In this document: positions 2,660-64,000 of the stretch, in pieces
Layout of the letters: each line of letters opens with the position of its first letter
How positions within the stretch are numbered: position 1 is the stretch's first letter
DNA from: Flectonema sp. DT1601
Taxonomy: Eukaryota; Euglenozoa; Diplonemea; Diplonemida; Diplonemidae
DNA: 64,000 nt
Assembly: GCA_964019425.1 (NCBI GenBank)
Contig: OZ025829.1
Coordinates: 779,484-843,483 of the forward strand
Reading direction: 5' to 3'
Notes under the pieces: generated by a model
What the model saw: only the letters and a program-made list of their open reading frames with translations
What the model was told of the DNA's origin: nothing
The model's database searches: none
Made by a program: the position numbers and the translations under genes

Positions 2660-2731
2660 TCAAAGTGGTAACTCTGATTTCGATAAAAAGAAGGATTCAT
2701 AATCTTCTTTTACTTCAAGCCTTCCTTAAAC

Positions 2732-5507: not shown

Positions 5508-5889
5508 AATTGCCATGTAGGACATTTCGAGACTCAAATTTTAGATTGTTACCGAGTCTTCTTTAGGTCACCACCGCAGATTTAGAGCACTTCTTGTTGT
5601 GCAGTTCATCAGAAAACTCCGTGAATTACAAACAGAGAGTGTCTTTCTTGAGCACCAGTCTGTTTGGCAAACTGGTAATGAAAAAAAAGATTTGAATCAA
5701 AACTTATCAATAAAATAAGTGATTGCGGCATCTGTTTTGTTATTGTTGTCGTATTCTACACGTGTTGTAAAGCAGTTCTTACTCATCGTCACCAACACTA
5801 AAACGATTTACGATAACAGACTTCAATAATTTACAAATCAACTTAGTAAACAACATCTCTAACAGGTCAGGTCATCAACAGTAATTATA
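5508..5889 (+). other. Intergenic spacer
   Basis: I see no gene here. The CTCTAACAG (5857-5865) and CATCAACAG (near 5873-5881) sites just before the ATG at 5890 are the likely acceptors of the next gene. Confidence 0.4.
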
Positions 5890-36514: not shown

Positions 36515-37260
36515 TGATGCCAACTAATTATATTTAGTTACGGAATACGGGTGACTATTCTTTTCTTCATTTCTCTCTGTCTCGAAGACAATTGAAAGTT
36601 AAACAACAGAATCAGTCAGCAGCGTATACTTTCCCAATTAACGTACCAGCAACAGAACTAAAACTCAAGTTTGACTGGATGGAAGTACTAAATTCCATTT
36701 CTAAATAAACACCTCTCTTGTAAACGTTTCATAAAATTAGTGTGGCAGAATTTCTCGCAGCAGTTCTGTCCATACAAAATTGCAGTAACTCGGAACATTC
36801 AACTCATATCCCAACTAATAGTTTATGTGGTGATTGTAAACTGGTCGTGTTTTATATTATTATACTTCTGTAGATCTTATCTAACAGCTTCTTGTCCGAT
36901 GACAATATTCTTTTCTTCTTTTTATATTAGTATGGCGCTGGATATCATATGAGGAATATTCGATTCTTCAAGAAATGGAATGCAACACTTTTATGTTAAA
37001 ACGCAGCGTGTGCTACTCTTCCTCTTTTTTGATGTTCGTTGCCGCTGTCTTAACTGGATCGCCAGCAGTGCCTCTCTTCGGGAATTAGCGATATTGAGGT
37101 GTAGAGTTACGTTGCATTTTCTACTACAGTGCGATTTCCGCAAAATGTACAACGAGTTTGAACAACTCCCGAAGCACTTCATCAATCGGCAGTTGATTTT
37201 GTCGAGTGGTATCGTAGATTTGGATGTGAATTTGATTGAAGACACTCTCTTCTGAAAACT
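36515..37260. repeat. Spacer between beta-helix copies 1 and 2, shared with downstream of copy 4
   Basis: No gene is seen. The first 130 bases after the stop (to about 36650) and the block about 36735-36910 are nearly identical to 44616-44747 and about 44829-45000. A 26-base motif (GTTGCCGCTGTCTTAACTGG and on, near 37039) recurs near 42334 and 45660. Confidence 0.6.
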
Positions 37261-37296
37261 CTTTTCCACAACAGGAGTTCCTTTTCATACAAAAAA

Positions 37297-38682: not shown

Positions 38683-40350
38683 TGATGCCAACTAATTATA
38701 TTTAGTTACGGAATACGGGTAACTATTCTTCTTTTATTTTCCTCATTCATATTTGATGAGTGTCGAGTGTGAATTGTTTCATGTCTTTCCACAACAACAA
38801 CATGCAGCGTGATTTTCTATTTTTAATTTATTAGGTGGATTGTTTCCGATTTACTTACTAACGACAGAATTTAAACTCAAGCTGACCGTTCGTAAATAAG
38901 TTATGTTCCATTTCTAAAATAGTAATCTTTCTTTAAAACGTTTCAACGCCAAAAGAAACTGTTCTGTCTGCTGTTTGAAAAGTGAAGTTGCAGGTACGAT
39001 GGTCCGTCGAAGTTAAGACCTTAAACTGACTGTCATCTTACCTTATCCTTTTTGTTTTCATTTCTTGCTGAGTGATATGGCTATGTGCTGCCCAATTTTT
39101 TGTGGTACTATTTAAAGCTTTCGATAAGCCCGCAGTACAATTAGAATACAATGCTTTGGACAACTGGGGGTGAACGATCCTCGGTTGTTCCGGGGTTTTC
39201 TATTTTCTTTCGTAGTGTCCGGGCGTATGGCACATATGGTCGTATTATAAAGAAAGATGTATAATATATTATGAAAAAAAGATTTTTTATTTTTTTCACA
39301 TTTCCCCCCAACCTGATGGTACGTGGTTCCCGAACCACGAGTCTTCTGGTCGATAAGACAAAAAATATAGTTTTCCCTTCAATGTTTTATTTTTTCTAAA
39401 CTTACCTTTTCTTTGATTAACAACTACAAATATTGCTTCAGTCAAGTACTTGATATTAATTTTATTTTTAATACCTAAAGTTGTTACTGTTTTTACATTG
39501 TCAAAGTTTGACCAGATCATTTCTCTTTTATTTTCTTTAGTGGAAGCTGGAAGTCGATCACTTCCAGCCGATACTATGAAACTACTGGGTCCTTACTGAT
39601 GCGGGCTACCCTAGTCATCAGTTCTGTATTTTGCTAACTAACTAATTTTTGTCTTAGAACGATAGCATCTATTCCGCAGTGTATTATGGAACAGCAGAAC
39701 AATGTGTTTTTATAATTTTCTTTTTAAAATTTATTTTAGTGCACTTTTTTTATATTCTAACTAATTTTTGTCTTAGAATGATAGCATCTTCAACACAGAA
39801 TCCCTTAGAACTTACTGATGAAAGCCTAAAAAAGGGACGAGTAGTATAAGATTAAGGCTCCTGAAACTACATATTCTATTACCCTTTTGATGTTAGAAAA
39901 CTGCAGAAAATTGATACTTTTTCTTTTACTTATCTGAGAATAATCTCTATTTTTTATTCTCACTTTTCTGTACTAAAATTAATGATATTTATTACTGACC
40001 ATATTCTGCGGATCTTATTCAACATCTTCAGCTTCCTGTCCGCCGACTAATTATCTTTGAGTTTCGATTTTATAATTCTCACACTTTATTTTTACTCTTG
40101 GCTTTTGTTTGTGCGGCAACCGGAAACAAGACTACAATAAAATGTGTTGACAACAAGTCAAGCTGCCACTATTCCTGTTCAATATGTCCGTGAACTACTG
40201 ATATTTCTTTTTTACTTTTATAGAAGTTTTATAACGTAGAGTTGCGTTCGTTACAATTCCACTTCGTTGAACGTAAACTGCAACGTGTTTAAATCATTTC
40301 GAATATTACGAAGCACTTTGAAGTCACTCTTTTTCTGATTCACTGAAAAG
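38683..40350. other. Long spacer between beta-helix copies 2 and 3
   Basis: About 1.7 kb without a convincing gene. The first 120 bases resemble the 3' flank of copy 3. Minus-strand frames near 39141-39520 are short and without recognisable domains. An internal near-repeat is listed separately. Confidence 0.4.
39633..39789. repeat. Two near-identical 33-base repeats 119 bases apart
   Basis: CTAACTAATTTTTGTCTTAG followed by AA(C/T)GATAGCATCT occurs ending at 39670 and again at 39757-39789. It differs by a single base over the 33, consistent with a small local duplication. Confidence 0.6.
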
Positions 40351-40374
40351 TATTTTCCGCAGGAAATACAAAAA

Positions 40375-41763
40375 ATGAAAGCGCTCATGCTCTTTGCTGC
40401 CGTTGCAACAGCTGCAGCGGTTGACATGCCGTCGATATCTGAAGCCAAGAGAATGCACAAGAAGAAGATGTCGGAAGCGAGAGTGAAAGCATCAGCCAAT
40501 GGTCACGTATTTGATAAGAGACCTGAAGATGAGCCAGCAGCAGTGAGGTCGAGGATGCTCGGGAGCTACACTAACGGAGCTGTGTTCTCACCAACAGATT
40601 TCGGAGCTGACCCAACAGGGAAAACAGACAGTACTGATGCAGTCTTAAAAGCATTGAACAGCATGTTGAATATTGTGAACGCTTCGGTTATGGCTGATGG
40701 CATTAAAGATTTGGGTGGTGCCACCCTCGATCTTCGTGGAGGTACTTATCTGATCTCAAAGACAGTGACTGTCCCTCAGTATATGGGGAACTTTAAGATT
40801 TCTGATGGAACACTTAAGGCTGCCTCTAACTTTCCTTCGAATGGTTTTTTAATTCGTATCGGTGATTCAGTTTGTAAAAACTCTCAAGCATCGTGTAATG
40901 AAGAACTTGTTATCGACGGAGTCATGTTTAATGCGAATCACGTTGCCTTCGGTGGGTTGTACATCGGAGCAACGATGGGAACAATTGTGATTGAATCTTT
41001 CTTTTATGGTTTCAATTCTGTCGGGATACTCGTCGAGGGAGGTCACGAAACGATGATCAGCAACTGCTGGCTCAGCGAATTCTACTACTCTGAGAGTCAT
41101 CCTGGAAGTCACAACAGTACAGGTATTCATATTGCTGGTAATGATCACTTTATTACGAACGTAATCGTCTTTGATTACACCACCGTTGGTATTCACATCT
41201 CCGGTGCGGCAAACTTATTAACCGGAATCCACACTTGGAACGGAGGTGGTGTCGGAATCCAACTCGGTAGCGCCAGTAGTGCGTACGGAGCTAATCAGAA
41301 CAGACTTATTGGTTGCTACCTCGACTTCAACACATTAGACATTTACAATCCTTCAGCATTGATTGTTGAGAATACATTCTTTTTACAGACGTATGCTAAA
41401 CTTATTGGCGGGAAATTAAAAGGCCTGCGAATGGAAATGAACACCTTCGTTCCAAACGCTCAGCACAAGGGCGTCTCAATCGCTTTAGTCGGAACCTTCA
41501 CTCCGGAATCGGTTGCTGATACGTTGATCACTGGCATTAATTGTAAGGTTACGAAGTATCAGTTTGCGCACAAGATGACTGAGCAGGTAAACATCAAAGA
41601 CTTGAGTGATGTTTTAGTGTTTCCTTTCATTAAGTACATTCAGTTTTCCGTAACAGCTACTGGAGGTGTTGCAAGTGGAGCATTCCTCGAAGTTAACGGA
41701 ACACAGATTACGATGAACAAAGGTTCCGCAAAGGATGTTGTTTTCTATGTTGAGGTGCAGTAG
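40375..41763 (+). CDS. Secreted pectate-lyase-3-like beta-helix protein, copy 3
   Basis: This 462-residue copy shares NGFLIRIGDSVCKNSQASCNE-type loop residues (LIRIGDSVCKNSQASC) with copy 4, but YLDFNT and AHKMTEQ with copy 1, and FFLQTYA and NAQHKGVS with copies 2 and 4. Two residues are private: GANQNR in place of GAHQNR, and KLKGLR in place of N. The 5' leader (CACTGAAAAGTATTTTCCGCAGG) is a second leader type, shared only with copy 4, whereas the 3' flank follows copy 2. The ATG lies about 20 bases after the CCGCAG acceptor. It is a working-length secreted protein with no broken codons. Confidence 0.85.
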   Translation: MKALMLFAAVATAAAVDMPSISEAKRMHKKKMSEARVKASANGHVFDKRPEDEPAAVRSRMLGSYTNGAVFSPTDFGADPTGKTDSTDAVLKALNSMLNIVNASVMADGIKDLGGATLDLRGGTYLISKTVTVPQYMGNFKISDGTLKAASNFPSNGFLIRIGDSVCKNSQASCNEELVIDGVMFNANHVAFGGLYIGATMGTIVIESFFYGFNSVGILVEGGHETMISNCWLSEFYYSESHPGSHNSTGIHIAGNDHFITNVIVFDYTTVGIHISGAANLLTGIHTWNGGGVGIQLGSASSAYGANQNRLIGCYLDFNTLDIYNPSALIVENTFFLQTYAKLIGGKLKGLRMEMNTFVPNAQHKGVSIALVGTFTPESVADTLITGINCKVTKYQFAHKMTEQVNIKDLSDVLVFPFIKYIQFSVTATGGVASGAFLEVNGTQITMNKGSAKDVVFYVEVQ

Positions 41764-43205
41764 TGATGCCAACTAATTATATTTAGTTACGGAATACGGA
41801 TAACTATTCTTCTTTATTTTCCTCATTCATATTTGATGAGTGAGTCGAGTGTGAATTGTTTCATGTCTTTCCACAACAACACAAACAACAACGATTTCAT
41901 GATAAAAACCTTGGAAAGAAGAAGCATATTCTGTTTCTGTAGTATGGCAGTCTAGCAACAGAGTGTCACGACTATGCATTCAGTATTACGATAGCTTCTT
42001 TGATTTGAGGTCATTTTCTTTTTTTAGTTAATCTACGCCTGTCGTGGATCGCGAACGTATTTGCAATTTTGGAAGCGCACGCTGTGAACGGCGTTTCTGA
42101 GATTCTGTTTTTTTTTTTTTTTTGTGAGTGGTTTTCTGTTTGTGGTTTTTGTGACTGGTTATCAAATGAAGAAACTCATTTCTTGGAATGAAATATCTTT
42201 AGCATTGAATTTTAGTCGGGAATATTTTTCTTTTTTCAAGTGTTGTGCATCAGTAGCCGTACAGAAGTTCTCTGAACGGAACATAAAACGTAGCGTTGGT
42301 TGCACTAATAACTTTTATATTTATTTGCTATGTTCATTGCCGCTGTCTTAACTGGATCGCTGGCAGAATTTCTTGCAGATTTGTATAGCAGCAACATCAC
42401 TGCTTCTAGCTGTCGATAATATTTTTTCCCTACAGCGAAAAACTTAAAATAAGTTCAACTTGTAGTGTGCTACGACCAGTAAAAGGGATTTTATTTTTAC
42501 TTTAGTAGTTTACAATATTTTTTTCTTAGGTTTTCCTTTGATATCTATTTAAATTGTTGTGGATATTTATAATTCAAAAACTGTAACACTCAACCTGTAG
42601 TACGTGGCCCAATTCCCGTATTCGACAGCACGTATGGATTTTTATTTTTTCGATACCAACTGTTTGGCCTTTTTACATGATTGCTCTCTTCGGAAAACAT
42701 AACTTCAGCCATCAATTGGCAGCGCCTCCTTATTCCGTTGAACGAGTTCAAGTCACTTCTCTAAGCAGATCCGTGTGTGCGTTTGGTTTTAACCAGTTTC
42801 AGTTACAGTATCAAGTTACCCCCTGGACCGATCAAAAAAGACTAAAGTCAGATTTCTGAAGAAATTAACAAGCCCTCATCACTACAACATAAAGAGTCGA
42901 AGATAGATAGCCGTCAAATATACCACGGCACTACCAGTAATTAAATACACCTTTCAGAGAGTAGCAACGAAACACAGAATCTAAGATCCAAGCCAACCGG
43001 TAGAGTTACTGCGAGAGGAAAAAGATGTGTCGGATGAAAATGACTGCGACACCTGTGATAGTAAAGATGCTGTGTAAGACATTGTGTACAAACCCGTATC
43101 ACTACAACACGAGAGGGTAGAAACTAGAATTTGAAAGAACATAACAATCACACGATAAGTGCTGTTCATGAAGAGTCGTTGTTTTGATTCACTGAAAAAT
43201 ATTTT
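41764..43205. repeat. Spacer after copy 3 containing a duplicated 500-base block
   Basis: No gene is seen. Bases about 41964-42472 recur at about 45248-45796 with small indels: TGTCACGACTATGCATTCAG at the start and CAGCGAAAAACTTAAAATAA near the end. The rest, to 43205, is unique within the window and without a convincing frame. Confidence 0.65.
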
Positions 43206-43226
43206 TCCCGCAGGAAATACAAAAAA

Positions 43227-44615
43227 ATGAAGGCGCTCATGCTCTTTGCTGCCGTTGCAACAGCTGCAGCGGTTGACATGCCGTCGATATCTGAAGCCAA
43301 GAGAATGCACAAGAGGAAGATGTCGGAAGCGAGAGTGAAAGCATCAGCCAATGGTCACGTATTTGATAAGAGACCTGAAGATGAGCCAGCAGCAGTGAGG
43401 TCGAGGATGCTCGGGAGCTACACTAACGGAGCTGTGTTCTCACCAACAGATTTCGGAGCTGACCCAACAGGGAAAACAGACAGTACTGATGCAGTCTTAA
43501 AAGCATTGAACAGCATGTTGAATATTGTGAACGCTTCGGTTATGGCTGATGGCATTAAAGATTTGGGTGGTGCCACCCTCGATCTTCGTGGAGGTACTTA
43601 TCTGATCTCAAAGACAGTGACTGTCCCTCAGTATATGGGGAACTTTAAGATTTCTGATGGAACACTTAAGGCTGCCTCTAACTTTCCTTCGAATGGTTTT
43701 TTAATTCGTATCGGTGATTCAGTTTGTAAAAACTCTCAAGCATCGTGTAATGAAGAACTTGTTATCGACGGAGTCATGTTTAATGCGAATCACGTTGCCT
43801 TCGGTGGGTTGTACATCGGAGCAACGATGGGAACAATTGTGATTGAATCTTTCTTTTATGGTTTCAATTCTGTCGGGATACTCGTCGAGGGAGGTCACGA
43901 AACGATGATCAGCAACTGCTGGCTCAGCGAATTCTACTACTCTGAGAGTCATCCTGGAAGTCACAATAGTACAGGTATTCATATTGCTGGTAATGATCAC
44001 TTTATTACGAACGTAATCGTCTTTGATTACACCACTGTTGGTATTCACATCTCCGGTGCGGCAAACTTATTAACTGGAATCCACACTTGGAACGGAGGTG
44101 GTGTCGGAATCCAACTCGGTAGCGCCAGCATTGCGTACGGAGCTCATCAGAACAGACTTATTGGTTGTTACCTCGACGGGAACACATTAGACATTTACAA
44201 TCCTTCAGCATTGATTGTTGAGAATACATTCTTTTTACAGACGTATGCTAATCTGATTGGCGGGAAATTAAACGGCCTGCGAATGGAAATGAACACCTTC
44301 GTTCCAAACGCTCAGCACAAGGGCGTCTCAATCGCTTTAGTCGGAACCTTCACTCCGGAATCGGTTGCTGATACGTTGATCACTGGCATTAATTGCAAGG
44401 TTACAAAGTATCAGTTTGTGCAGACGATGACTGAGCAGGTAAACATCAAAGACTTGAGTGATGTTTTAGTGTTTCCTTTCATTAAGTACATTCAGTTTTC
44501 CGTAACAGCTACTGGAGGTGTTGCAAGTGGAGCATTCCTCGAAGTTAACGGAACACAGATTACGATGAACAAAGGTTCCGCAAAGGATGTTGTTTTCTAT
44601 GTTGAGGTGCAGTAG
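43227..44615 (+). CDS. Secreted pectate-lyase-3-like beta-helix protein, copy 4
   Basis: This 462-residue copy is a visible chimera. Up to about residue 295 it tracks copy 3 (LIRIGDSVCKNSQASC, YIGATMGTIV, GILVEGG), while the last third tracks copy 2 (YLDGNT, YANLIGGKLNG, FVQTMTEQ). One residue, Ile in SASIAYG, is private. Near the N-terminus it has KRKMSE as in copy 2. The start context is the copy-3 type with a slightly longer A run. All four copies keep the N-glycosylation sites NAS, NST and NGT. The family is intronless although other genes here have introns, which could reflect a retrocopy or acquired ancestor. Confidence 0.85.
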   Translation: MKALMLFAAVATAAAVDMPSISEAKRMHKRKMSEARVKASANGHVFDKRPEDEPAAVRSRMLGSYTNGAVFSPTDFGADPTGKTDSTDAVLKALNSMLNIVNASVMADGIKDLGGATLDLRGGTYLISKTVTVPQYMGNFKISDGTLKAASNFPSNGFLIRIGDSVCKNSQASCNEELVIDGVMFNANHVAFGGLYIGATMGTIVIESFFYGFNSVGILVEGGHETMISNCWLSEFYYSESHPGSHNSTGIHIAGNDHFITNVIVFDYTTVGIHISGAANLLTGIHTWNGGGVGIQLGSASIAYGAHQNRLIGCYLDGNTLDIYNPSALIVENTFFLQTYANLIGGKLNGLRMEMNTFVPNAQHKGVSIALVGTFTPESVADTLITGINCKVTKYQFVQTMTEQVNIKDLSDVLVFPFIKYIQFSVTATGGVASGAFLEVNGTQITMNKGSAKDVVFYVEVQ

Positions 44616-49626: not shown

Positions 49627-49651
49627 CGCAAACCCGCAAACCCGCAAACCC
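49627..49651 (+). repeat. Octamer island 1 (three units of AAACCCGC)
   Basis: CGCAAACCCGCAAACCCGCA + AACCC: about three in-phase units of the same octamer, in the same orientation as the long array that starts 1.8 kb further right. It marks the left edge of the first inserted-looking segment. Confidence 0.8.
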
Positions 49652-49786
49652 ACACTAGAGATACCCCTTCCAGGCTCGCGTTGCTCGCACACAATTTTTT
49701 TTTTTAAAGCTTTCTGAACAAACATTATTTTTACAACCGAGTCACGTCTGTTTTTATTCCATGTGTCTGGCTAGGTACGCGTCCAG

Positions 49787-49852
49787 GGTACAAAATTGAA
49801 CTTAACTTTACGCTCGCTTCGCTCGCGTTAAGTTAAGTCCAATTTTGTATCC
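49787..49852. repeat. Long inverted repeat / hairpin
   Basis: Arms 49787-49813 (GGTACAAAATTGAACTTAAC...) and 49825-49852 (its near complement, ending GTCCAATTTTGTATCC) pair over about 27 bases with a few mismatches and one bulge. The 11-base loop TCGCTTCGCTC is itself partly palindromic. Confidence 0.7.
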
Positions 49853-49902
49853 TTTTCCTTGCTATTTTCTTCTTAATTTTTCTGGTTGAAAAACACAAAA
49901 AA

Positions 49903-49976
49903 TGTGCCTGGGAATTGAACCCTTGCCACGGCTACCGAAGAGATTTAAGGTATCCACTTGGCTGTGCAGCCCTGGG
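49903..49976 (-). mobile_element. tRNA-derived SINE-like head (Pol III A and B boxes)
   Basis: On the minus strand an A-box-like GCCAAGTGG (49954-49962) lies 32 bases before a B-box-like GGTTCAATTCC (49911-49921; consensus GGTTCRANTCC), which is tRNA spacing. The acceptor stem does not pair, so this is not a working tRNA. It resembles the head of a tRNA-derived SINE. An A-rich tract lies just upstream on the same strand, and the hairpin lies downstream. Confidence 0.5.
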
Positions 49977-50074
49977 ATTTTTTTTTTTTTATTTATTTAT
50001 TTGTGTGTTCTTAACCTCTTTATGGATTTTCCCTTCCCTCCAGTCTTAACGTAGGGGAGTCTACCAGGTGCCTA

Positions 50075-50116
50075 CCCGCAAACCTGCAAACCCGCAAACC
50101 CGCAAACCCGCAAACC
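50075..50116 (+). repeat. Octamer island 2 (five units of AAACCCGC)
   Basis: Five units, the second beginning with a T for C change (CCTGCAAACCCGC). It has the same orientation as island 1 and the long array. It separates the SINE-bearing segment (49652-50074) from the ORF-bearing segment (50117-51415). Confidence 0.8.
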
Positions 50117-50337
50117 AACACTCAGACTGGGAACTGCACAAAAGGCAAGTGAAGTACGATATACTCTTATAATATTTTCCTTTTCATTGATCAACATTAA
50201 ATGTTGTTTAAGTATCATTTTTGTTCTCTTGTTATTATTTCAGATTTATCATTTTACTGTTCTCTTATCATTATTTCATTGTACTCATTTATTCAGGCTA
50301 GGAAGGGTCTTAACGCAAAGCGTTTTTAAGAATTAAT
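50117..50337 (+). other. Leader of the ORF-bearing segment
   Basis: The first bases after island 2 (CCAACACTCAGACTG) resemble those after island 1 (CCCACACTAGAGATA), suggesting a shared insertion edge. The rest is AT-rich with no frame. Confidence 0.35.
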
Positions 50338-51415
50338 ATGCCGGAGCATTATTTTGACTTTTCCGTACCTTCTTCGGTAATGGAAAAGGTACGCCCCTTA
50401 TTAGGAGATGTGAGTAGGATGAAGGTATCCCTCACTGCGAGGAACAGGAGGTTCCAAGCAGCGATGGGGCTGTCAGGAAGTGACAGCATTTGGATGCCGA
50501 CTTGTCGTGAGGACAGCTCGTCATCCCGCAGGGCTGACAACGATAAGTTGTTGGCTTTGTGTCTCGACATCCCCGTGGGGTTGGCGAGGACGTTGTCGGC
50601 ACGGACCGTTTTTGTGCTGCTGACGGGATTGGCGGAAGTGAGTGCAGAAGGAATGAGGGAGAGGATGAGAGCGATGGGCCTGATGGGGGGAGCGGCGCCG
50701 TCGGTACCGTCGCCGATGACCGGGGAAAATAGTTCCTTGGTAACGGTGATGGACGTGGATCAGGTGCCACCGCCGCGGTTTGCAGAGCCGGGTTTGGAGG
50801 ACTTGGCACGCGTCGGTGGGATGGCCTACCGAGAGTTGAAGGGGCAGGCTGTGGCGCACCAGTCGGTGACACAGCAGCTGGCGGCCCGACAAGCGCAGCA
50901 CACCACAGCCGGGGGGAACTTGGAGGTGACGGTGAACCGGGTCACGGAAGTGATCAAGGAGCAGGCCTGGAGGCAGGTGAAGGCCGAGGAACGCACCGCC
51001 TTGGTTGAAGGGGCGGCTGAAGAAGCCTTCAACGTCGTGTCTGATAGGCAGGATGAGCTGGGGGAGGCCGTCAAGAAGATGGCGAAGGAGAAGGCCAGAC
51101 AGGATGGGGTGTTGAGGACCGAGCAACAGAAGAGGGAAGACCTGCAACACCGGTTGGAGCAACAACAGCTCCTTCTGAACCAGCAGAAGGAAGAGCAAGA
51201 GTTGCAGAAGCAAAATCAGCAAAAGCAGGAGCTGCGGAGTCAGCACGCGCAAGAACAGCATCAGAAGCAACTTCAACAGCAGCAAGTTCAGCAGCAGCAG
51301 CTTCAACAGATGAGTCAGAAGCAAGTTTTAGAACAAAGAAGGCTCGAAGAGCAACTGAAGGTTCGAGACGAGCAATTGCTGCAGCAACAGCAGTTGCAAA
51401 TGAGAGTACCTGCAT
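50338..51415 (+). CDS. GC-rich ORF of unknown function, open into the octamer array
   Basis: From the ATG at 50338 (in-frame alternatives 50380 and 50419) the frame is open for about 360 codons up to the array, and then on through the array to the window edge without a stop. It begins MPEHYFDFSV. The first half has no recognisable domain; the second half (from about residue 220) is a glutamine-rich coiled-coil (RLEQQQLLLNQQKEEQELQK and similar). Codon use is GC-rich with many GCG, CTG and CAG, unlike the AT-rich genes to its left, which suggests a foreign origin. Coiled-coil ORF1 or Gag-like proteins of retroelements look like this, but no zinc knuckle or reverse transcriptase is present. The natural 3' end appears to be missing. 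Confidence 0.5.
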
Positions 51416-54400
51416 TAACCCGCAAACCCGCAAACCCGCAAACCCGCAAACCCGCAAACCCGCAAACCCGCAAACCCGCAAACCCGCAAACCCGCAAACC
51501 CGCAAACCCGCAAACCCGCAAACCCGCAAACCCGCAAACCCGCAAACCCGCAAACCCGCAAACCCGCAAACCCGCAAACCCGCAAACCCGCAAACCCGCA
51601 AACCCGCAAACCCGCAAACCCGCAAACCCGCAAACCCGCAAACCCGCAAACCCGCAAACCCGCAAACCCGCAAACCCGCAAACCCGCAAACCCGCAAACC
51701 CGCAAACCCGCAAACCCGCAAACCCGCAAACCCGCAAACCCGCAAACCCGCAAACCCGCAAACCCGCAAACCCGCAAACCCGCAAACCCGCAAACCCGCA
51801 AACCCGCAAACCCGCAAACCCGCAAACCCGCAAACCCGCAAACCCGCAAACCCGCAAACCCGCAAACCCGCAAACCCGCAAACCCGCAAACCCGCAAACC
51901 CGCAAACCCGCAAACCCGCAAACCCGCAAACCCGCAAACCCGCAAACCCGCAAACCCGCAAACCCGCAAACCCGCAAACCCGCAAACCCGCAAACCCGCA
52001 AACCCGCAAACCCGCAAACCCGCAAACCCGCAAACCCGCAAACCCGCAAACCCGCAAACCCGCAAACCCGCAAACCCGCAAACCCGCAAACCCGCAAACC
52101 CGCAAACCCGCAAACCCGCAAACCCGCAAACCCGCAAACCCGCAAACCCGCAAACCCGCAAACCCGCAAACCCGCAAACCCGCAAACCCGCAAACCCGCA
52201 AACCCGCAAACCCGCAAACCCGCAAACCCGCAAACCCGCAAACCCGCAAACCCGCAAACCCGCAAACCCGCAAACCCGCAAACCCGCAAACCCGCAAACC
52301 CGCAAACCCGCAAACCCGCAAACCCGCAAACCCGCAAACCCGCAAACCCGCAAACCCGCAAACCCGCAAACCCGCAAACCCGCAAACCCGCAAACCCGCA
52401 AACCCGCAAACCCGCAAACCCGCAAACCCGCAAACCCGCAAACCCGCAAACCCGCAAACCCGCAAACCCGCAAACCCGCAAACCCGCAAACCCGCAAACC
52501 CGCAAACCCGCAAACCCGCAAACCCGCAAACCCGCAAACCCGCAAACCCGCAAACCCGCAAACCCGCAAACCCGCAAACCCGCAAACCCGCAAACCCGCA
52601 AACCCGCAAACCCGCAAACCCGCAAACCCGCAAACCCGCAAACCCGCAAACCCGCAAACCCGCAAACCCGCAAACCCGCAAACCCGCAAACCCGCAAACC
52701 CGCAAACCCGCAAACCCGCAAACCCGCAAACCCGCAAACCCGCAAACCCGCAAACCCGCAAACCCGCAAACCCGCAAACCCGCAAACCCGCAAACCCGCA
52801 AACCCGCAAACCCGCAAACCCGCAAACCCGCAAACCCGCAAACCCGCAAACCCGCAAACCCGCAAACCCGCAAACCCGCAAACCCGCAAACCCGCAAACC
52901 CGCAAACCCGCAAACCCGCAAACCCGCAAACCCGCAAACCCGCAAACCCGCAAACCCGCAAACCCGCAAACCCGCAAACCCGCAAACCCGCAAACCCGCA
53001 AACCCGCAAACCCGCAAACCCGCAAACCCGCAAACCCGCAAACCCGCAAACCCGCAAACCCGCAAACCCGCAAACCCGCAAACCCGCAAACCCGCAAACC
53101 CGCAAACCCGCAAACCCGCAAACCCGCAAACCCGCAAACCCGCAAACCCGCAAACCCGCAAACCCGCAAACCCGCAAACCCGCAAACCCGCAAACCCGCA
53201 AACCCGCAAACCCGCAAACCCGCAAACCCGCAAACCCGCAAACCCGCAAACCCGCAAACCCGCAAACCCGCAAACCCGCAAACCCGCAAACCCGCAAACC
53301 CGCAAACCCGCAAACCCGCAAACCCGCAAACCCGCAAACCCGCAAACCCGCAAACCCGCAAACCCGCAAACCCGCAAACCCGCAAACCCGCAAACCCGCA
53401 AACCCGCAAACCCGCAAACCCGCAAACCCGCAAACCCGCAAACCCGCAAACCCGCAAACCCGCAAACCCGCAAACCCGCAAACCCGCAAACCCGCAAACC
53501 CGCAAACCCGCAAACCCGCAAACCCGCAAACCCGCAAACCCGCAAACCCGCAAACCCGCAAACCCGCAAACCCGCAAACCCGCAAACCCGCAAACCCGCA
53601 AACCCGCAAACCCGCAAACCCGCAAACCCGCAAACCCGCAAACCCGCAAACCCGCAAACCCGCAAACCCGCAAACCCGCAAACCCGCAAACCCGCAAACC
53701 CGCAAACCCGCAAACCCGCAAACCCGCAAACCCGCAAACCCGCAAACCCGCAAACCCGCAAACCCGCAAACCCGCAAACCCGCAAACCCGCAAACCCGCA
53801 AACCCGCAAACCCGCAAACCCGCAAACCCGCAAACCCGCAAACCCGCAAACCCGCAAACCCGCAAACCCGCAAACCCGCAAACCCGCAAACCCGCAAACC
53901 CGCAAACCCGCAAACCCGCAAACCCGCAAACCCGCAAACCCGCAAACCCGCAAACCCGCAAACCCGCAAACCCGCAAACCCGCAAACCCGCAAACCCGCA
54001 AACCCGCAAACCCGCAAACCCGCAAACCCGCAAACCCGCAAACCCGCAAACCCGCAAACCCGCAAACCCGCAAACCCGCAAACCCGCAAACCCGCAAACC
54101 CGCAAACCCGCAAACCCGCAAACCCGCAAACCCGCAAACCCGCAAACCCGCAAACCCGCAAACCCGCAAACCCGCAAACCCGCAAACCCGCAAACCCGCA
54201 AACCCGCAAACCCGCAAACCCGCAAACCCGCAAACCCGCAAACCCGCAAACCCGCAAACCCGCAAACCCGCAAACCCGCAAACCCGCAAACCCGCAAACC
54301 CGCAAACCCGCAAACCCGCAAACCCGCAAACCCGCAAACCCGCAAACCCGCAAACCCGCAAACCCGCAAACCCGCAAACCCGCAAACCCGCAAACCCGCA

Positions 54401-57400
54401 AACCCGCAAACCCGCAAACCCGCAAACCCGCAAACCCGCAAACCCGCAAACCCGCAAACCCGCAAACCCGCAAACCCGCAAACCCGCAAACCCGCAAACC
54501 CGCAAACCCGCAAACCCGCAAACCCGCAAACCCGCAAACCCGCAAACCCGCAAACCCGCAAACCCGCAAACCCGCAAACCCGCAAACCCGCAAACCCGCA
54601 AACCCGCAAACCCGCAAACCCGCAAACCCGCAAACCCGCAAACCCGCAAACCCGCAAACCCGCAAACCCGCAAACCCGCAAACCCGCAAACCCGCAAACC
54701 CGCAAACCCGCAAACCCGCAAACCCGCAAACCCGCAAACCCGCAAACCCGCAAACCCGCAAACCCGCAAACCCGCAAACCCGCAAACCCGCAAACCCGCA
54801 AACCCGCAAACCCGCAAACCCGCAAACCCGCAAACCCGCAAACCCGCAAACCCGCAAACCCGCAAACCCGCAAACCCGCAAACCCGCAAACCCGCAAACC
54901 CGCAAACCCGCAAACCCGCAAACCCGCAAACCCGCAAACCCGCAAACCCGCAAACCCGCAAACCCGCAAACCCGCAAACCCGCAAACCCGCAAACCCGCA
55001 AACCCGCAAACCCGCAAACCCGCAAACCCGCAAACCCGCAAACCCGCAAACCCGCAAACCCGCAAACCCGCAAACCCGCAAACCCGCAAACCCGCAAACC
55101 CGCAAACCCGCAAACCCGCAAACCCGCAAACCCGCAAACCCGCAAACCCGCAAACCCGCAAACCCGCAAACCCGCAAACCCGCAAACCCGCAAACCCGCA
55201 AACCCGCAAACCCGCAAACCCGCAAACCCGCAAACCCGCAAACCCGCAAACCCGCAAACCCGCAAACCCGCAAACCCGCAAACCCGCAAACCCGCAAACC
55301 CGCAAACCCGCAAACCCGCAAACCCGCAAACCCGCAAACCCGCAAACCCGCAAACCCGCAAACCCGCAAACCCGCAAACCCGCAAACCCGCAAACCCGCA
55401 AACCCGCAAACCCGCAAACCCGCAAACCCGCAAACCCGCAAACCCGCAAACCCGCAAACCCGCAAACCCGCAAACCCGCAAACCCGCAAACCCGCAAACC
55501 CGCAAACCCGCAAACCCGCAAACCCGCAAACCCGCAAACCCGCAAACCCGCAAACCCGCAAACCCGCAAACCCGCAAACCCGCAAACCCGCAAACCCGCA
55601 AACCCGCAAACCCGCAAACCCGCAAACCCGCAAACCCGCAAACCCGCAAACCCGCAAACCCGCAAACCCGCAAACCCGCAAACCCGCAAACCCGCAAACC
55701 CGCAAACCCGCAAACCCGCAAACCCGCAAACCCGCAAACCCGCAAACCCGCAAACCCGCAAACCCGCAAACCCGCAAACCCGCAAACCCGCAAACCCGCA
55801 AACCCGCAAACCCGCAAACCCGCAAACCCGCAAACCCGCAAACCCGCAAACCCGCAAACCCGCAAACCCGCAAACCCGCAAACCCGCAAACCCGCAAACC
55901 CGCAAACCCGCAAACCCGCAAACCCGCAAACCCGCAAACCCGCAAACCCGCAAACCCGCAAACCCGCAAACCCGCAAACCCGCAAACCCGCAAACCCGCA
56001 AACCCGCAAACCCGCAAACCCGCAAACCCGCAAACCCGCAAACCCGCAAACCCGCAAACCCGCAAACCCGCAAACCCGCAAACCCGCAAACCCGCAAACC
56101 CGCAAACCCGCAAACCCGCAAACCCGCAAACCCGCAAACCCGCAAACCCGCAAACCCGCAAACCCGCAAACCCGCAAACCCGCAAACCCGCAAACCCGCA
56201 AACCCGCAAACCCGCAAACCCGCAAACCCGCAAACCCGCAAACCCGCAAACCCGCAAACCCGCAAACCCGCAAACCCGCAAACCCGCAAACCCGCAAACC
56301 CGCAAACCCGCAAACCCGCAAACCCGCAAACCCGCAAACCCGCAAACCCGCAAACCCGCAAACCCGCAAACCCGCAAACCCGCAAACCCGCAAACCCGCA
56401 AACCCGCAAACCCGCAAACCCGCAAACCCGCAAACCCGCAAACCCGCAAACCCGCAAACCCGCAAACCCGCAAACCCGCAAACCCGCAAACCCGCAAACC
56501 CGCAAACCCGCAAACCCGCAAACCCGCAAACCCGCAAACCCGCAAACCCGCAAACCCGCAAACCCGCAAACCCGCAAACCCGCAAACCCGCAAACCCGCA
56601 AACCCGCAAACCCGCAAACCCGCAAACCCGCAAACCCGCAAACCCGCAAACCCGCAAACCCGCAAACCCGCAAACCCGCAAACCCGCAAACCCGCAAACC
56701 CGCAAACCCGCAAACCCGCAAACCCGCAAACCCGCAAACCCGCAAACCCGCAAACCCGCAAACCCGCAAACCCGCAAACCCGCAAACCCGCAAACCCGCA
56801 AACCCGCAAACCCGCAAACCCGCAAACCCGCAAACCCGCAAACCCGCAAACCCGCAAACCCGCAAACCCGCAAACCCGCAAACCCGCAAACCCGCAAACC
56901 CGCAAACCCGCAAACCCGCAAACCCGCAAACCCGCAAACCCGCAAACCCGCAAACCCGCAAACCCGCAAACCCGCAAACCCGCAAACCCGCAAACCCGCA
57001 AACCCGCAAACCCGCAAACCCGCAAACCCGCAAACCCGCAAACCCGCAAACCCGCAAACCCGCAAACCCGCAAACCCGCAAACCCGCAAACCCGCAAACC
57101 CGCAAACCCGCAAACCCGCAAACCCGCAAACCCGCAAACCCGCAAACCCGCAAACCCGCAAACCCGCAAACCCGCAAACCCGCAAACCCGCAAACCCGCA
57201 AACCCGCAAACCCGCAAACCCGCAAACCCGCAAACCCGCAAACCCGCAAACCCGCAAACCCGCAAACCCGCAAACCCGCAAACCCGCAAACCCGCAAACC
57301 CGCAAACCCGCAAACCCGCAAACCCGCAAACCCGCAAACCCGCAAACCCGCAAACCCGCAAACCCGCAAACCCGCAAACCCGCAAACCCGCAAACCCGCA

Positions 57401-60400
57401 AACCCGCAAACCCGCAAACCCGCAAACCCGCAAACCCGCAAACCCGCAAACCCGCAAACCCGCAAACCCGCAAACCCGCAAACCCGCAAACCCGCAAACC
57501 CGCAAACCCGCAAACCCGCAAACCCGCAAACCCGCAAACCCGCAAACCCGCAAACCCGCAAACCCGCAAACCCGCAAACCCGCAAACCCGCAAACCCGCA
57601 AACCCGCAAACCCGCAAACCCGCAAACCCGCAAACCCGCAAACCCGCAAACCCGCAAACCCGCAAACCCGCAAACCCGCAAACCCGCAAACCCGCAAACC
57701 CGCAAACCCGCAAACCCGCAAACCCGCAAACCCGCAAACCCGCAAACCCGCAAACCCGCAAACCCGCAAACCCGCAAACCCGCAAACCCGCAAACCCGCA
57801 AACCCGCAAACCCGCAAACCCGCAAACCCGCAAACCCGCAAACCCGCAAACCCGCAAACCCGCAAACCCGCAAACCCGCAAACCCGCAAACCCGCAAACC
57901 CGCAAACCCGCAAACCCGCAAACCCGCAAACCCGCAAACCCGCAAACCCGCAAACCCGCAAACCCGCAAACCCGCAAACCCGCAAACCCGCAAACCCGCA
58001 AACCCGCAAACCCGCAAACCCGCAAACCCGCAAACCCGCAAACCCGCAAACCCGCAAACCCGCAAACCCGCAAACCCGCAAACCCGCAAACCCGCAAACC
58101 CGCAAACCCGCAAACCCGCAAACCCGCAAACCCGCAAACCCGCAAACCCGCAAACCCGCAAACCCGCAAACCCGCAAACCCGCAAACCCGCAAACCCGCA
58201 AACCCGCAAACCCGCAAACCCGCAAACCCGCAAACCCGCAAACCCGCAAACCCGCAAACCCGCAAACCCGCAAACCCGCAAACCCGCAAACCCGCAAACC
58301 CGCAAACCCGCAAACCCGCAAACCCGCAAACCCGCAAACCCGCAAACCCGCAAACCCGCAAACCCGCAAACCCGCAAACCCGCAAACCCGCAAACCCGCA
58401 AACCCGCAAACCCGCAAACCCGCAAACCCGCAAACCCGCAAACCCGCAAACCCGCAAACCCGCAAACCCGCAAACCCGCAAACCCGCAAACCCGCAAACC
58501 CGCAAACCCGCAAACCCGCAAACCCGCAAACCCGCAAACCCGCAAACCCGCAAACCCGCAAACCCGCAAACCCGCAAACCCGCAAACCCGCAAACCCGCA
58601 AACCCGCAAACCCGCAAACCCGCAAACCCGCAAACCCGCAAACCCGCAAACCCGCAAACCCGCAAACCCGCAAACCCGCAAACCCGCAAACCCGCAAACC
58701 CGCAAACCCGCAAACCCGCAAACCCGCAAACCCGCAAACCCGCAAACCCGCAAACCCGCAAACCCGCAAACCCGCAAACCCGCAAACCCGCAAACCCGCA
58801 AACCCGCAAACCCGCAAACCCGCAAACCCGCAAACCCGCAAACCCGCAAACCCGCAAACCCGCAAACCCGCAAACCCGCAAACCCGCAAACCCGCAAACC
58901 CGCAAACCCGCAAACCCGCAAACCCGCAAACCCGCAAACCCGCAAACCCGCAAACCCGCAAACCCGCAAACCCGCAAACCCGCAAACCCGCAAACCCGCA
59001 AACCCGCAAACCCGCAAACCCGCAAACCCGCAAACCCGCAAACCCGCAAACCCGCAAACCCGCAAACCCGCAAACCCGCAAACCCGCAAACCCGCAAACC
59101 CGCAAACCCGCAAACCCGCAAACCCGCAAACCCGCAAACCCGCAAACCCGCAAACCCGCAAACCCGCAAACCCGCAAACCCGCAAACCCGCAAACCCGCA
59201 AACCCGCAAACCCGCAAACCCGCAAACCCGCAAACCCGCAAACCCGCAAACCCGCAAACCCGCAAACCCGCAAACCCGCAAACCCGCAAACCCGCAAACC
59301 CGCAAACCCGCAAACCCGCAAACCCGCAAACCCGCAAACCCGCAAACCCGCAAACCCGCAAACCCGCAAACCCGCAAACCCGCAAACCCGCAAACCCGCA
59401 AACCCGCAAACCCGCAAACCCGCAAACCCGCAAACCCGCAAACCCGCAAACCCGCAAACCCGCAAACCCGCAAACCCGCAAACCCGCAAACCCGCAAACC
59501 CGCAAACCCGCAAACCCGCAAACCCGCAAACCCGCAAACCCGCAAACCCGCAAACCCGCAAACCCGCAAACCCGCAAACCCGCAAACCCGCAAACCCGCA
59601 AACCCGCAAACCCGCAAACCCGCAAACCCGCAAACCCGAAACCCGCAAACCCGCAAACCCGCAAACCCGCAAACCCGCAAACCCGCAAACCCGCAAACCC
59701 GCAAACCCGCAAACCCGCAAACCCGCAAACCCGCAAACCCGCAAACCCGCAAACCCGCAAACCCGCAAACCCGCAAACCCGCAAACCCGCAAACCCGCAA
59801 ACCCGCAAACCCGCAAACCCGCAAACCCGCAAACCCGCAAACCCGCAAACCCGCAAACCCGCAAACCCGCAAACCCGCAAACCCGCAAACCCGCAAACCC
59901 GCAAACCCGCAAACCCGCAAACCCGCAAACCCGCAAACCCGCAAACCCGCAAACCCGCAAACCCGCAAACCCGCAAACCCGCAAACCCGCAAACCCGCAA
60001 ACCCGCAAACCCGCAAACCCGCAAACCCGCAAACCCGCAAACCCGCAAACCCGCAAACCCGCAAACCCGCAAACCCGCAAACCCGCAAACCCGCAAACCC
60101 GCAAACCCGCAAACCCGCAAACCCGCAAACCCGCAAACCCGCAAACCCGCAAACCCGCAAACCCGCAAACCCGCAAACCCGCAAACCCGCAAACCCGCAA
60201 ACCCGCAAACCCGCAAACCCGCAAACCCGCAAACCCGCAAACCCGCAAACCCGCAAACCCGCAAACCCGCAAACCCGCAAACCCGCAAACCCGCAAACCC
60301 GCAAACCCGCAAACCCGCAAACCCGCAAACCCGCAAACCCGCAAACCCGCAAACCCGCAAACCCGCAAACCCGCAAACCCGCAAACCCGCAAACCCGCAA

Positions 60401-63400
60401 ACCCGCAAACCCGCAAACCCGCAAACCCGCAAACCCGCAAACCCGCAAACCCGCAAACCCGCAAACCCGCAAACCCGCAAACCCGCAAACCCGCAAACCC
60501 GCAAACCCGCAAACCCGCAAACCCGCAAACCCGCAAACCCGCAAACCCGCAAACCCGCAAACCCGCAAACCCGCAAACCCGCAAACCCGCAAACCCGCAA
60601 ACCCGCAAACCCGCAAACCCGCAAACCCGCAAACCCGCAAACCCGCAAACCCGCAAACCCGCAAACCCGCAAACCCGCAAACCCGCAAACCCGCAAACCC
60701 GCAAACCCGCAAACCCGCAAACCCGCAAACCCGCAAACCCGCAAACCCGCAAACCCGCAAACCCGCAAACCCGCAAACCCGCAAACCCGCAAACCCGCAA
60801 ACCCGCAAACCCGCAAACCCGCAAACCCGCAAACCCGCAAACCCGCAAACCCGCAAACCCGCAAACCCGCAAACCCGCAAACCCGCAAACCCGCAAACCC
60901 GCAAACCCGCAAACCCGCAAACCCGCAAACCCGCAAACCCGCAAACCCGCAAACCCGCAAACCCGCAAACCCGCAAACCCGCAAACCCGCAAACCCGCAA
61001 ACCCGCAAACCCGCAAACCCGCAAACCCGCAAACCCGCAAACCCGCAAACCCGCAAACCCGCAAACCCGCAAACCCGCAAACCCGCAAACCCGCAAACCC
61101 GCAAACCCGCAAACCCGCAAACCCGCAAACCCGCAAACCCGCAAACCCGCAAACCCGCAAACCCGCAAACCCGCAAACCCGCAAACCCGCAAACCCGCAA
61201 ACCCGCAAACCCGCAAACCCGCAAACCCGCAAACCCGCAAACCCGCAAACCCGCAAACCCGCAAACCCGCAAACCCGCAAACCCGCAAACCCGCAAACCC
61301 GCAAACCCGCAAACCCGCAAACCCGCAAACCCGCAAACCCGCAAACCCGCAAACCCGCAAACCCGCAAACCCGCAAACCCGCAAACCCGCAAACCCGCAA
61401 ACCCGCAAACCCGCAAACCCGCAAACCCGCAAACCCGCAAACCCGCAAACCCGCAAACCCGCAAACCCGCAAACCCGCAAACCCGCAAACCCGCAAACCC
61501 GCAAACCCGCAAACCCGCAAACCCGCAAACCCGCAAACCCGCAAACCCGCAAACCCGCAAACCCGCAAACCCGCAAACCCGCAAACCCGCAAACCCGCAA
61601 ACCCGCAAACCCGCAAACCCGCAAACCCGCAAACCCGCAAACCCGCAAACCCGCAAACCCGCAAACCCGCAAACCCGCAAACCCGCAAACCCGCAAACCC
61701 GCAAACCCGCAAACCCGCAAACCCGCAAACCCGCAAACCCGCAAACCCGCAAACCCGCAAACCCGCAAACCCGCAAACCCGCAAACCCGCAAACCCGCAA
61801 ACCCGCAAACCCGCAAACCCGCAAACCCGCAAACCCGCAAACCCGCAAACCCGCAAACCCGCAAACCCGCAAACCCGCAAACCCGCAAACCCGCAAACCC
61901 GCAAACCCGCAAACCCGCAAACCCGCAAACCCGCAAACCCGCAAACCCGCAAACCCGCAAACCCGCAAACCCGCAAACCCGCAAACCCGCAAACCCGCAA
62001 ACCCGCAAACCCGCAAACCCGCAAACCCGCAAACCCGCAAACCCGCAAACCCGCAAACCCGCAAACCCGCAAACCCGCAAACCCGCAAACCCGCAAACCC
62101 GCAAACCCGCAAACCCGCAAACCCGCAAACCCGCAAACCCGCAAACCCGCAAACCCGCAAACCCGCAAACCCGCAAACCCGCAAACCCGCAAACCCGCAA
62201 ACCCGCAAACCCGCAAACCCGCAAACCCGCAAACCCGCAAACCCGCAAACCCGCAAACCCGCAAACCCGCAAACCCGCAAACCCGCAAACCCGCAAACCC
62301 GCAAACCCGCAAACCCGCAAACCCGCAAACCCGCAAACCCGCAAACCCGCAAACCCGCAAACCCGCAAACCCGCAAACCCGCAAACCCGCAAACCCGCAA
62401 ACCCGCAAACCCGCAAACCCGCAAACCCGCAAACCCGCAAACCCGCAAACCCGCAAACCCGCAAACCCGCAAACCCGCAAACCCGCAAACCCGCAAACCC
62501 GCAAACCCGCAAACCCGCAAACCCGCAAACCCGCAAACCCGCAAACCCGCAAACCCGCAAACCCGCAAACCCGCAAACCCGCAAACCCGCAAACCCGCAA
62601 ACCCGCAAACCCGCAAACCCGCAAACCCGCAAACCCGCAAACCCGCAAACCCGCAAACCCGCAAACCCGCAAACCCGCAAACCCGCAAACCCGCAAACCC
62701 GCAAACCCGCAAACCCGCAAACCCGCAAACCCGCAAACCCGCAAACCCGCAAACCCGCAAACCCGCAAACCCGCAAACCCGCAAACCCGCAAACCCGCAA
62801 ACCCGCAAACCCGCAAACCCGCAAACCCGCAAACCCGCAAACCCGCAAACCCGCAAACCCGCAAACCCGCAAACCCGCAAACCCGCAAACCCGCAAACCC
62901 GCAAACCCGCAAACCCGCAAACCCGCAAACCCGCAAACCCGCAAACCCGCAAACCCGCAAACCCGCAAACCCGCAAACCCGCAAACCCGCAAACCCGCAA
63001 ACCCGCAAACCCGCAAACCCGCAAACCCGCAAACCCGCAAACCCGCAAACCCGCAAACCCGCAAACCCGCAAACCCGCAAACCCGCAAACCCGCAAACCC
63101 GCAAACCCGCAAACCCGCAAACCCGCAAACCCGCAAACCCGCAAACCCGCAAACCCGCAAACCCGCAAACCCGCAAACCCGCAAACCCGCAAACCCGCAA
63201 ACCCGCAAACCCGCAAACCCGCAAACCCGCAAACCCGCAAACCCGCAAACCCGCAAACCCGCAAACCCGCAAACCCGCAAACCCGCAAACCCGCAAACCC
63301 GCAAACCCGCAAACCCGCAAACCCGCAAACCCGCAAACCCGCAAACCCGCAAACCCGCAAACCCGCAAACCCGCAAACCCGCAAACCCGCAAACCCGCAA

Positions 63401-64000
63401 ACCCGCAAACCCGCAAACCCGCAAACCCGCAAACCCGCAAACCCGCAAACCCGCAAACCCGCAAACCCGCAAACCCGCAAACCCGCAAACCCGCAAACCC
63501 GCAAACCCGCAAACCCGCAAACCCGCAAACCCGCAAACCCGCAAACCCGCAAACCCGCAAACCCGCAAACCCGCAAACCCGCAAACCCGCAAACCCGCAA
63601 ACCCGCAAACCCGCAAACCCGCAAACCCGCAAACCCGCAAACCCGCAAACCCGCAAACCCGCAAACCCGCAAACCCGCAAACCCGCAAACCCGCAAACCC
63701 GCAAACCCGCAAACCCGCAAACCCGCAAACCCGCAAACCCGCAAACCCGCAAACCCGCAAACCCGCAAACCCGCAAACCCGCAAACCCGCAAACCCGCAA
63801 ACCCGCAAACCCGCAAACCCGCAAACCCGCAAACCCGCAAACCCGCAAACCCGCAAACCCGCAAACCCGCAAACCCGCAAACCCGCAAACCCGCAAACCC
63901 GCAAACCCGCAAACCCGCAAACCCGCAAACCCGCAAACCCGCAAACCCGCAAACCCGCAAACCCGCAAACCCGCAAACCCGCAAACCCGCAAACCCGCAA
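51416..64000 (+). repeat. Telomere-like tandem octamer array (AAACCCGC)n, runs off the window
   Basis: About 12.6 kb and roughly 1,570 units of AAACCCGC (complement TTTGCGGG). I saw one irregular unit, at about 59636-59642, where a C is missing and the phase shifts by one. Because 8 is not a multiple of 3 and no stop codon forms, all six frames are open; the + strand reads as repeats of TRKPANPQ and the - strand as LRVCGFAG. These frames are not genes. The G-strand form (T-run plus GGG) fits a telomeric repeat, but the orientation does not fit a chromosome end on the right. Confidence 0.95.

Follow-up and report, generated by a model that had tools for sequence, protein, structure and literature searches.

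An octamer, TTTGCGGG on its G-rich strand and CCCGCAAA on its C-rich strand, is present on most assembled chromosome ends of this genome and is almost restricted to them, and at every end that carries it the G-rich strand runs inward. The assembly comprises 89.5 Mb in 92 contigs, and a census of the outermost 100 bases at each of the 184 contig ends, which we infer to be chromosome ends, detected the octamer at 114; the original prediction had proposed that it be counted at other contig ends. Both ends carried it in 36 of the 92 contigs and neither end in 14. On the plus strand, TTTGCGGG was read at 58 of the 92 left ends and CCCGCAAA at 56 of the 92 right ends, that is, the G-rich strand pointed inward in 114 of 114 cases and outward in none (sign test, p 1e-34, ends treated as independent). 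At the contig ends the 3'-terminal strand is therefore C-rich. Polarity relative to the end is unaffected by flipping a contig.

With canonical telomeres, the left end of a contig reads C-rich and the right end G-rich, and we know of no exception to the rule of an outward G-strand. The rule itself, that the G-rich strand runs outward and toward the 3' end, is stated in the available part of PMC6410037. An ordinary G-outward telomere is ruled out here, being found at 0 of 114 ends. Likewise, the proposal that TTTGCGGG is an ordinary telomeric G-strand was overturned, since an inward G-strand at all octamer ends makes an ordinary G-rich telomerase product impossible if these are true ends; lacking an outward G-strand, the octamer is classed as a variant and not as an ordinary telomeric repeat. 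A satellite lying mid-chromosome and interrupted by contig breaks was also rejected, as constant orientation would predict both polarities at left ends and this was not seen. The broader suggestion of a possible new telomeric repeat thus stood in part: the position at 114 of 184 ends, the lack of any usual repeat and the presence of an encoded TERT support it, and the ordinary G-strand direction had to be given up. We consider the chances even that the array is a genuine telomere with its polarity inverted, made by a telomerase whose template is G-rich.

Terminal and interstitial octamer arrays

The window, the whole stretch of 64,000 nucleotides that was analyzed, closes on the last base of contig C50 (843,483 bp), at its right-hand end, and the features close to that end are collected in Table 1. 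The terminal array was assigned a period of 8 and 1573.1 copies with 99% matches by TRF, and a direct count resolved its 12,584 bases into 1,571 exact CCCGCAAA units and a sole interruption, the unit CCCGAAA, one base short, at ~59,639. Both methods agree with the near-perfect 12.6 kb array described in the original prediction, and its estimate of about 1,570 units with a single one-base deletion is matched by the 1,573 copies and the one short unit. The contig stops within the array and the copy number is thus a lower bound. The longest period-8 run in positions 1-49,000 of the window was 23 bases, and the maximum in 20 base shuffles of positions 1-51,416 was 11 bases, which excludes a chance origin of the array. 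With CCCGCAAA on the plus strand and TTTGCGGG on the minus strand at this right-hand end, the G-rich strand runs 5' to 3' into the chromosome. The recognized protein-coding frames of the window all lie on the plus strand and head for the array.

Table 1. Features of the window next to the right end of contig C50
Feature	Position	Strand	Evidence
Terminal octamer array, (CCCGCAAA)n on +, (TTTGCGGG)n on -	51417..64000	-	TRF, direct count
Junction of broken TATE-like gag gene and octamer, CTGCATT/AACCCGCA	51410..51424		sequence
TATE-like putative tyrosine-recombinase retrotransposon, 5' part, truncated by array	50117..51416	+	tblastn, open frame
Interstitial octamer array, 5.4 copies, one substitution, polarity as terminal array	50074..50116	-	TRF
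SINE-like short element, bounds approximate, 3' end inward	49652..50073	-	sequence
Interstitial octamer array, 3.1 copies, polarity as terminal array	49627..49651	-	TRF

Across the assembly, overlapping 24-mer matches numbered 58,639 and 57,242 on the two strands, and the octamer is estimated to make up about 0.93 Mb, some 1% of the total. The element/octamer junction GCGGG/GAAYC was found at 96 places and recurred among ends; 89 of these lay less than 60 kb from an end with the G-strand inward, four had the opposite orientation and three were interior, the contig side being judged from the coordinate in 16 rows. Breaks after GCGGG (n = 51) were distributed in the same manner, with 48 less than 60 kb from an end and the G-strand inward, one opposite and two interior (contig side judged from the coordinate in five rows). 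Overall, 142 of the 147 sampled octamer junctions lay less than 60 kb from an end.

The remaining 70 contig ends lay outside the octamer. Scattered octamer words occurred in four of them, the left ends of C4, C18 and C28 and the right end of C61, whereas 66 had none. Where such ends were recognized they consisted of TATE-like coiled-coil genes, rDNA or spliced-leader arrays, and the most periodic was the right end of C74, a 32-bp repeat. A noisy outer stretch resembling a single raw read was present at C4, C14, C45 and C62 left and at C88 right. Over their outermost 100 bases, the 70 ends showed no other simple array of telomere-like form. Exact triple runs of the TTAGGG, TTTAGGG and TTTTAGGG types, searched as AGGGTT, AGGGTTN and AGGGTTNN units, were absent from the 89.5 Mb, with one match for the reversed control, which rules out these usual repeats. 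The TTGGGG types were ruled out because triple GGGGTT-type runs were confined to four places, all within a 3.9-kb tandem on C24. Hence there is no competing end repeat in the genome among the patterns tried. A different repeat at the ends of other contigs had been named in advance as the outcome that would count against a telomere, and in the outermost 100 bases of the 184 ends no telomere-like one was found.

Terminal and interstitial arrays differed in length and in purity. In nine terminal arrays of the 10-kb end loci examined (60,230 bp) there were four substitution-like and 31 indel-like breaks, versus five substitution-like and two indel-like breaks in twelve interstitial arrays (2,959 bp), so that substitution-like breaks per base were ~25 times less frequent in the terminal arrays (Fisher p 2e-5, bases taken as independent). 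The indel-like breaks of the terminal arrays are as expected for long-read errors. The left end of C4 was excluded from the break count because its outer end is noisy, the C20 array was clipped at 10 kb, and arrays were joined only where the gap was 12 bases or less, with the result that a strongly decayed stretch is scored as the end of an array. Median length was 6.6 kb for the terminal arrays versus 94 bp for the interstitial ones, seven of the twelve being shorter than 100 bp. Outward of the twelve interstitial arrays lay other sequence, with element ends where it could be recognized, and in no case another telomere-like repeat. The terminal arrays look renewed and the interstitial ones decayed.

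TATE-like elements and broken genes beside the arrays

In the 10-kb end loci examined, the terminal arrays were followed inward by successive elements, and the short octamer arrays that separate these share the polarity of the terminal ones. A complete TATE-like element of 5,766 bp was identified at the left end of C2 (L012 1,521-7,286). Its gag-like, YR and RT/RH frames occupy positions 132-1862, 2256-3371 and 2189-5092 of the element, and are, in that order, a coiled-coil ORF rich in Q, an ORF of 371 codons that carries tyrosine-recombinase residues and an overlapping RT/RNase H ORF. Split direct repeats are present, A1 (1-196) being 100% identical to A2 (5288-5483) over 196 bp and B1 (5021-5285) 100% identical to B2 (5502-5766) over 265 bp, with a CC core between B1 and A2. 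Residues R217, H306, R310, H337 and Y351 of the YR frame, which we take to be the R/H/R/H/Y motif of tyrosine recombinases, were invariant across five aligned rows, two of them identical; the alignment was made without copy L015, the translation of which has a stop. Pfam matches to RT/RNase H in the element fell under the cut-off (E 0.004-0.08), the YR ORF matched no Pfam domain and the RT profile, run against the PDB, found nothing better than E 0.07. The YR and RT assignments, made from architecture and motifs, are putative. The flanks of the element fit recombination of a circle (GGTTC-CC-TATC) with the octamer (AAA-CC-CGC) and show no target duplication; the recombination site in the octamer, taken from this one complete element, is AAA[CC]CGC, or GCG[GG]TTT on the G-strand. 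The 96 GCGGG/GAAYC junctions likewise speak for a fixed insertion place in the octamer.

Arrays also start directly in broken genes. In the window the gag-like frame stays open from 50,314 onward through the whole array, with no stop, and its tblastn match at 50,338-51,084 was to ORF1 of the C2 left element (36%, 261 aa, E 8e-32). This TATE-like gag gene is cut off at 51,416, where the octamer starts, and the junction may represent a healed break. At the left end of C10 the octamer array starts inside an RT gene. Array starts within truncated TATE-like genes could also arise by recombination. Elsewhere, arrays begin in unrecognized sequence (C49, C75 and C80 left) or at GAATC, a recurrent element end (C1 and C51 left). 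The left ends of C30 and C51 are near-identical in the stretch immediately inward of the array. Further copies of the SINE-like element, which appears to bear tRNA-like promoter boxes although ARAGORN detects no tRNA in the window, adjoin octamer arrays at the left ends of C2, C10, C30 and C50. That the octamer might be the native tail of this element was considered and dropped, as the C53 copy ends in CTCTAG without the octamer.

Telomerase and host lineage

A TERT gene was found on C7 as an open frame of 1,195 codons. It matched Telomerase_RBD (PF12009) above the cut-off (E 1e-10 to 2.5e-10), as none of 14 control genomes did, and RVT_1 with E 2e-7. In our reading, the strings LDASQAYD, GIPQG and ADDI appear to resemble motifs A, B' and C, respectively. 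A PDB sequence search with the TERT frame returned no match at E 0.01.

The telomerase RNA was sought with patterns of 11-letter octamer cores with broken flanks in two of the four planned phases, a coverage with which short templates may be missed. Outside the arrays these patterns gave 106 and 152 matches, compared with 13 and 8 for the reversed-pattern controls; among the matches listed, much of the excess fell within noisy contig ends and within elements that recur or stand in tandem. Ten interior candidate sites (501 bases each) were inspected and none could be distinguished as a telomerase RNA, the same ten giving sub-threshold, chance-like matches alone against Rfam. The two-phase pattern search thus identified no telomerase RNA with an octamer template.

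The host was characterized from its spliced leader, for which a 22-letter pattern gave 292 and 433 matches with at most one mismatch; among the matches listed, spliced leaders on C16 and C20 lay in tandem units of ~623 and 610 bp. One copy was read whole as AACCAACGATTCTAAAGCTACAGTTTCTGTACTTTATTG, and the entry 'Euglenozoa 14' with which it was compared is, we assume, that of Diplonema. Two differences in 39 were counted relative to the sequence given in the available part of PMC3795323. The spliced leader appears most like that of a diplonemid, and judged from sequence the host is a euglenozoan, most likely a diplonemid. A near-complete eukaryotic 18S gene (model positions 3-1786 of 1831) was located at the left end of C39. 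The Tet/JBP family, which comprises the makers of base J, was matched at two places, of which one is an open frame and the other is interrupted by three stops, and in none of 14 control genomes.

The genome paper of D. papillatum describes unresolved chromosomes of 1.1-1.8 Mb together with bands at 0.5 and 1.0 Mb, sizes similar to the 0.40-1.91 Mb of the contigs with the octamer at both ends, and ORFs resembling TATE; in the available part of its text TTAGGG is absent (PMC10161547).

Origin of the octamer and known systems

The position, polarity and purity of the octamer, the site in it at which the TATE-like element inserted and its direct start in broken genes were observed directly. The simplest scheme that would join them has the 3'-ending strand at each chromosome end as C-rich, (AAACCCGC)n, and the 5'-ending strand as G-rich. 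A G-rich telomerase RNA template, which would read like 5'-GCGGGUUUGCGG-3', is proposed as the cause of the inverted polarity. The octamer would then be made by telomerase through extension of C-rich 3' ends, and the overhang would presumably be C-rich. Subtelomeric breaks may be healed by the same octamer addition, while TATE-like circles would integrate into the octamer array and arrays trapped inside would subsequently decay. That a diplonemid telomerase has a G-rich RNA template and makes telomeres with a C-rich 3' strand, leaving chromosome ends without a G-rich 3' overhang, is given slightly less than an even chance.

Such an inverted telomere contradicts the outward G-strand rule (PMC6410037, available in part). 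Also against it, the contigs stop inside arrays and something else may lie beyond, the pattern search singled out no telomerase RNA, 70 of the 184 ends are outside the octamer, and insertion into a 6-12 kb telomere would yield arrays of <100 bp only with later loss. The main alternative, which we regard as rather unlikely but serious, is an oriented subtelomeric satellite with an ordinary canonical telomere beyond it, missing from the assembly as reads do not span the arrays. The polarity, wrong for a telomere, is what a satellite explains best; some contigs stop in noisy, single-read-like stretches as if reads had run out, and the TERT must make some repeat. However, no other candidate emerged from the genome-wide patterns tried or from the last 100 bases at each of the 184 ends, and none of the twelve interstitial arrays leads outward into another telomere-like repeat. 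The renewed look of the terminal arrays beside the decay of the interstitial ones also argues against a satellite, as does a TATE-like element that uses the octamer as TATE uses the telomere.

Alternatively, the octamer could be the physical end and be kept by recombination, through break-induced replication or a rolling circle, with the TERT idle or at work elsewhere. End-to-end copying would preserve a single polarity, so break-induced copying of ends also bears against the telomerase reading, junctions recur among ends, and the inner flanks of C30 and C51 left are near-identical. The TERT frame is nevertheless open with both expected domains, and the direct starts at non-octamer sequence (the window and C10, C49, C75 and C80 left) would need microhomology or end joining; we hold this origin to be improbable. 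Modified bases can disturb nanopore calling, and an artefact of assembly or base calling, such as chimeric joins or modified-base miscalls, might be suspected from the long-read style indels in the arrays, the noisy outer ends and the encoded base J makers. It is made very improbable by the agreement of 114 of 114 ends in sequence and polarity, by the octamer in short interstitial arrays within assembled sequence, and by a circle junction that fits the octamer base for base.

The direction of the G-strand is treated as fixed, and it underlies the accounts given of overhang-binding proteins, G-quadruplexes, t-loops and TERRA. An inverted telomere, if real, alongside an ordinary-looking TERT gene would show the polarity rule to be customary of the template and not something the mechanism requires; the binding of G-overhangs, capping by G-quadruplexes and fill-in of the C-strand would need a reversed arrangement, and the lineage would be a natural test case for telomere polarity. 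Were the octamer instead subterminal, it would still be a genome-wide oriented end satellite in a group of abundant marine flagellates, and its TATE-type elements would be the second example among euglenozoans of such elements recombining into an end repeat. In the open-access literature, no telomere paper on the octamer was among the matches listed, no C-rich 3' telomere or inverted polarity was among those listed, as far as the sources were available, and no description of a diplonemid telomere was found. The available part of a prokinetoplastid genome paper gives no nuclear telomere sequence (PMC7859406). The absence of a published report is weak evidence of novelty.

Relative to known systems, the octamer shares with telomerase-made repeats of the TTAGGG, TTTAGGG and TTTTAGGG types a unit of a T-run plus a G-run, a place at most contig ends, an encoded TERT and homogeneous terminal arrays, and differs from them in its inner GC, its eight-base unit and its inward G-rich strand. 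Subtelomeric tandem repeats adjoin Y' in yeast and, like the octamer, are oriented tandems near ends (PMC12134996, available in part); unlike them, the octamer has no telomere of other sequence seen beyond it. HeT-A, TRAS/SART and Athena are telomere-directed retroelements and form stacks with short terminal-repeat arrays between them, as is the case here; the present elements differ in having the look of tyrosine-recombinase elements, with insertion by recombination, and in the long octamer array that remains outside them. The closest parallels are those with TATE of Leishmania. TATE and VIPER have gag, overlapping YR and RT/RH, and split direct repeats (PMC12278014, available in part), and the present elements have in common with TATE the gag-like ORF and the overlapping YR and RT/RH ORFs (PMC6681497 and PMC12278014, as available), as well as the order A1 ... 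B1 A2 B2 and the lack of target duplication. In L. braziliensis TATE sits in the telomeric GGG^TTA (PMC6681497, available in part), compared with GGG^TTT in the octamer here. The elements therefore appear to fit TATE in architecture, split repeats and fixed site, and by this likeness the octamer seems to be treated as the telomere is in Leishmania, with the difference that the TATE host is a kinetoplastid and the present host, in which the target is the octamer, is not.

Octamer-like sequence next to and away from contig ends

The 32-bp subtelomeric tandem repeat contains the octamer-like sequence TTTGCTTGCGGG, and this repeat may be a relic or a relative of the octamer. Remnants of the octamer itself were found in the interiors of four contigs, two of them with the element junction, and these are possibly traces of old fusions or of inward transposition. 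The GGGGTTTT runs were the only telomere-like runs of three of the GGGGTT type found in a pattern search of the genome. TAGTGCGGGTTTGCGGGTTTT is an octamer-like stretch flanked by TAG on one side and T4 on the other.

Features of the assembly and of the window, with their positions
Feature	Position	Remarks
32-bp subtelomeric repeat	C50 left end, L010:1891-3095	tandem; adjoins octamer array
32-bp subtelomeric repeat	C74 right end (L192)	tandem; unit TTTGCTTGCGGGAAGAAAATAAGCAGCTAAAA
Octamer remnant	C33:412780	contig interior
Octamer remnant	C61:456374	contig interior
Octamer remnant	C10:729719	contig interior; element junction GGGGAATC
Octamer remnant	C21:638118	contig interior; element junction GGGGAATC
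GGGGTTTT runs	C24:162274-173931	contig interior; 4 places within 3.88-kb tandem
TAGTGCGGGTTTGCGGGTTTT	C18:1350274-1387639	at least 11 copies among matches listed; spacing mostly 3.66 kb
Spliced-leader gene array	C16:1432458-1446807	tandem; unit ~623 bp; 22-letter pattern, among matches listed
Spliced-leader gene array	C20:1248663 onward	tandem; unit ~610 bp; 22-letter pattern, among matches listed
Secreted-looking proteins	window 35126-44615	four in tandem, very similar to each other
Transposase	window 12524-14107	open frame; Pfam DDE_Tnp_1_7, E 1e-55

Contig sizes, telomerase frame and spliced-leader arrays

Some contig ends may have been trimmed by hand, because the sizes of C15 (1,460,000 bp), C21 (1,271,000 bp), C24 (1,228,000 bp), C29 (1,145,000 bp) and C37 (1,053,000 bp) are exact thousands. 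In the telomerase reverse transcriptase frame on C7 (stretches L029 and L194), motif C is followed by a lysine- and phenylalanine-rich segment with the look of an intron left unspliced in frame. Genome-wide, the 22-letter spliced-leader pattern gave 292 + 433 matches.

Other genes of the window

The first of the four tandem secreted-looking proteins matched Pfam Pect-lyase_RHGA_epim (E 9e-6), with a score slightly below the family cut-off. The transposase is presumably piggyBac-like.
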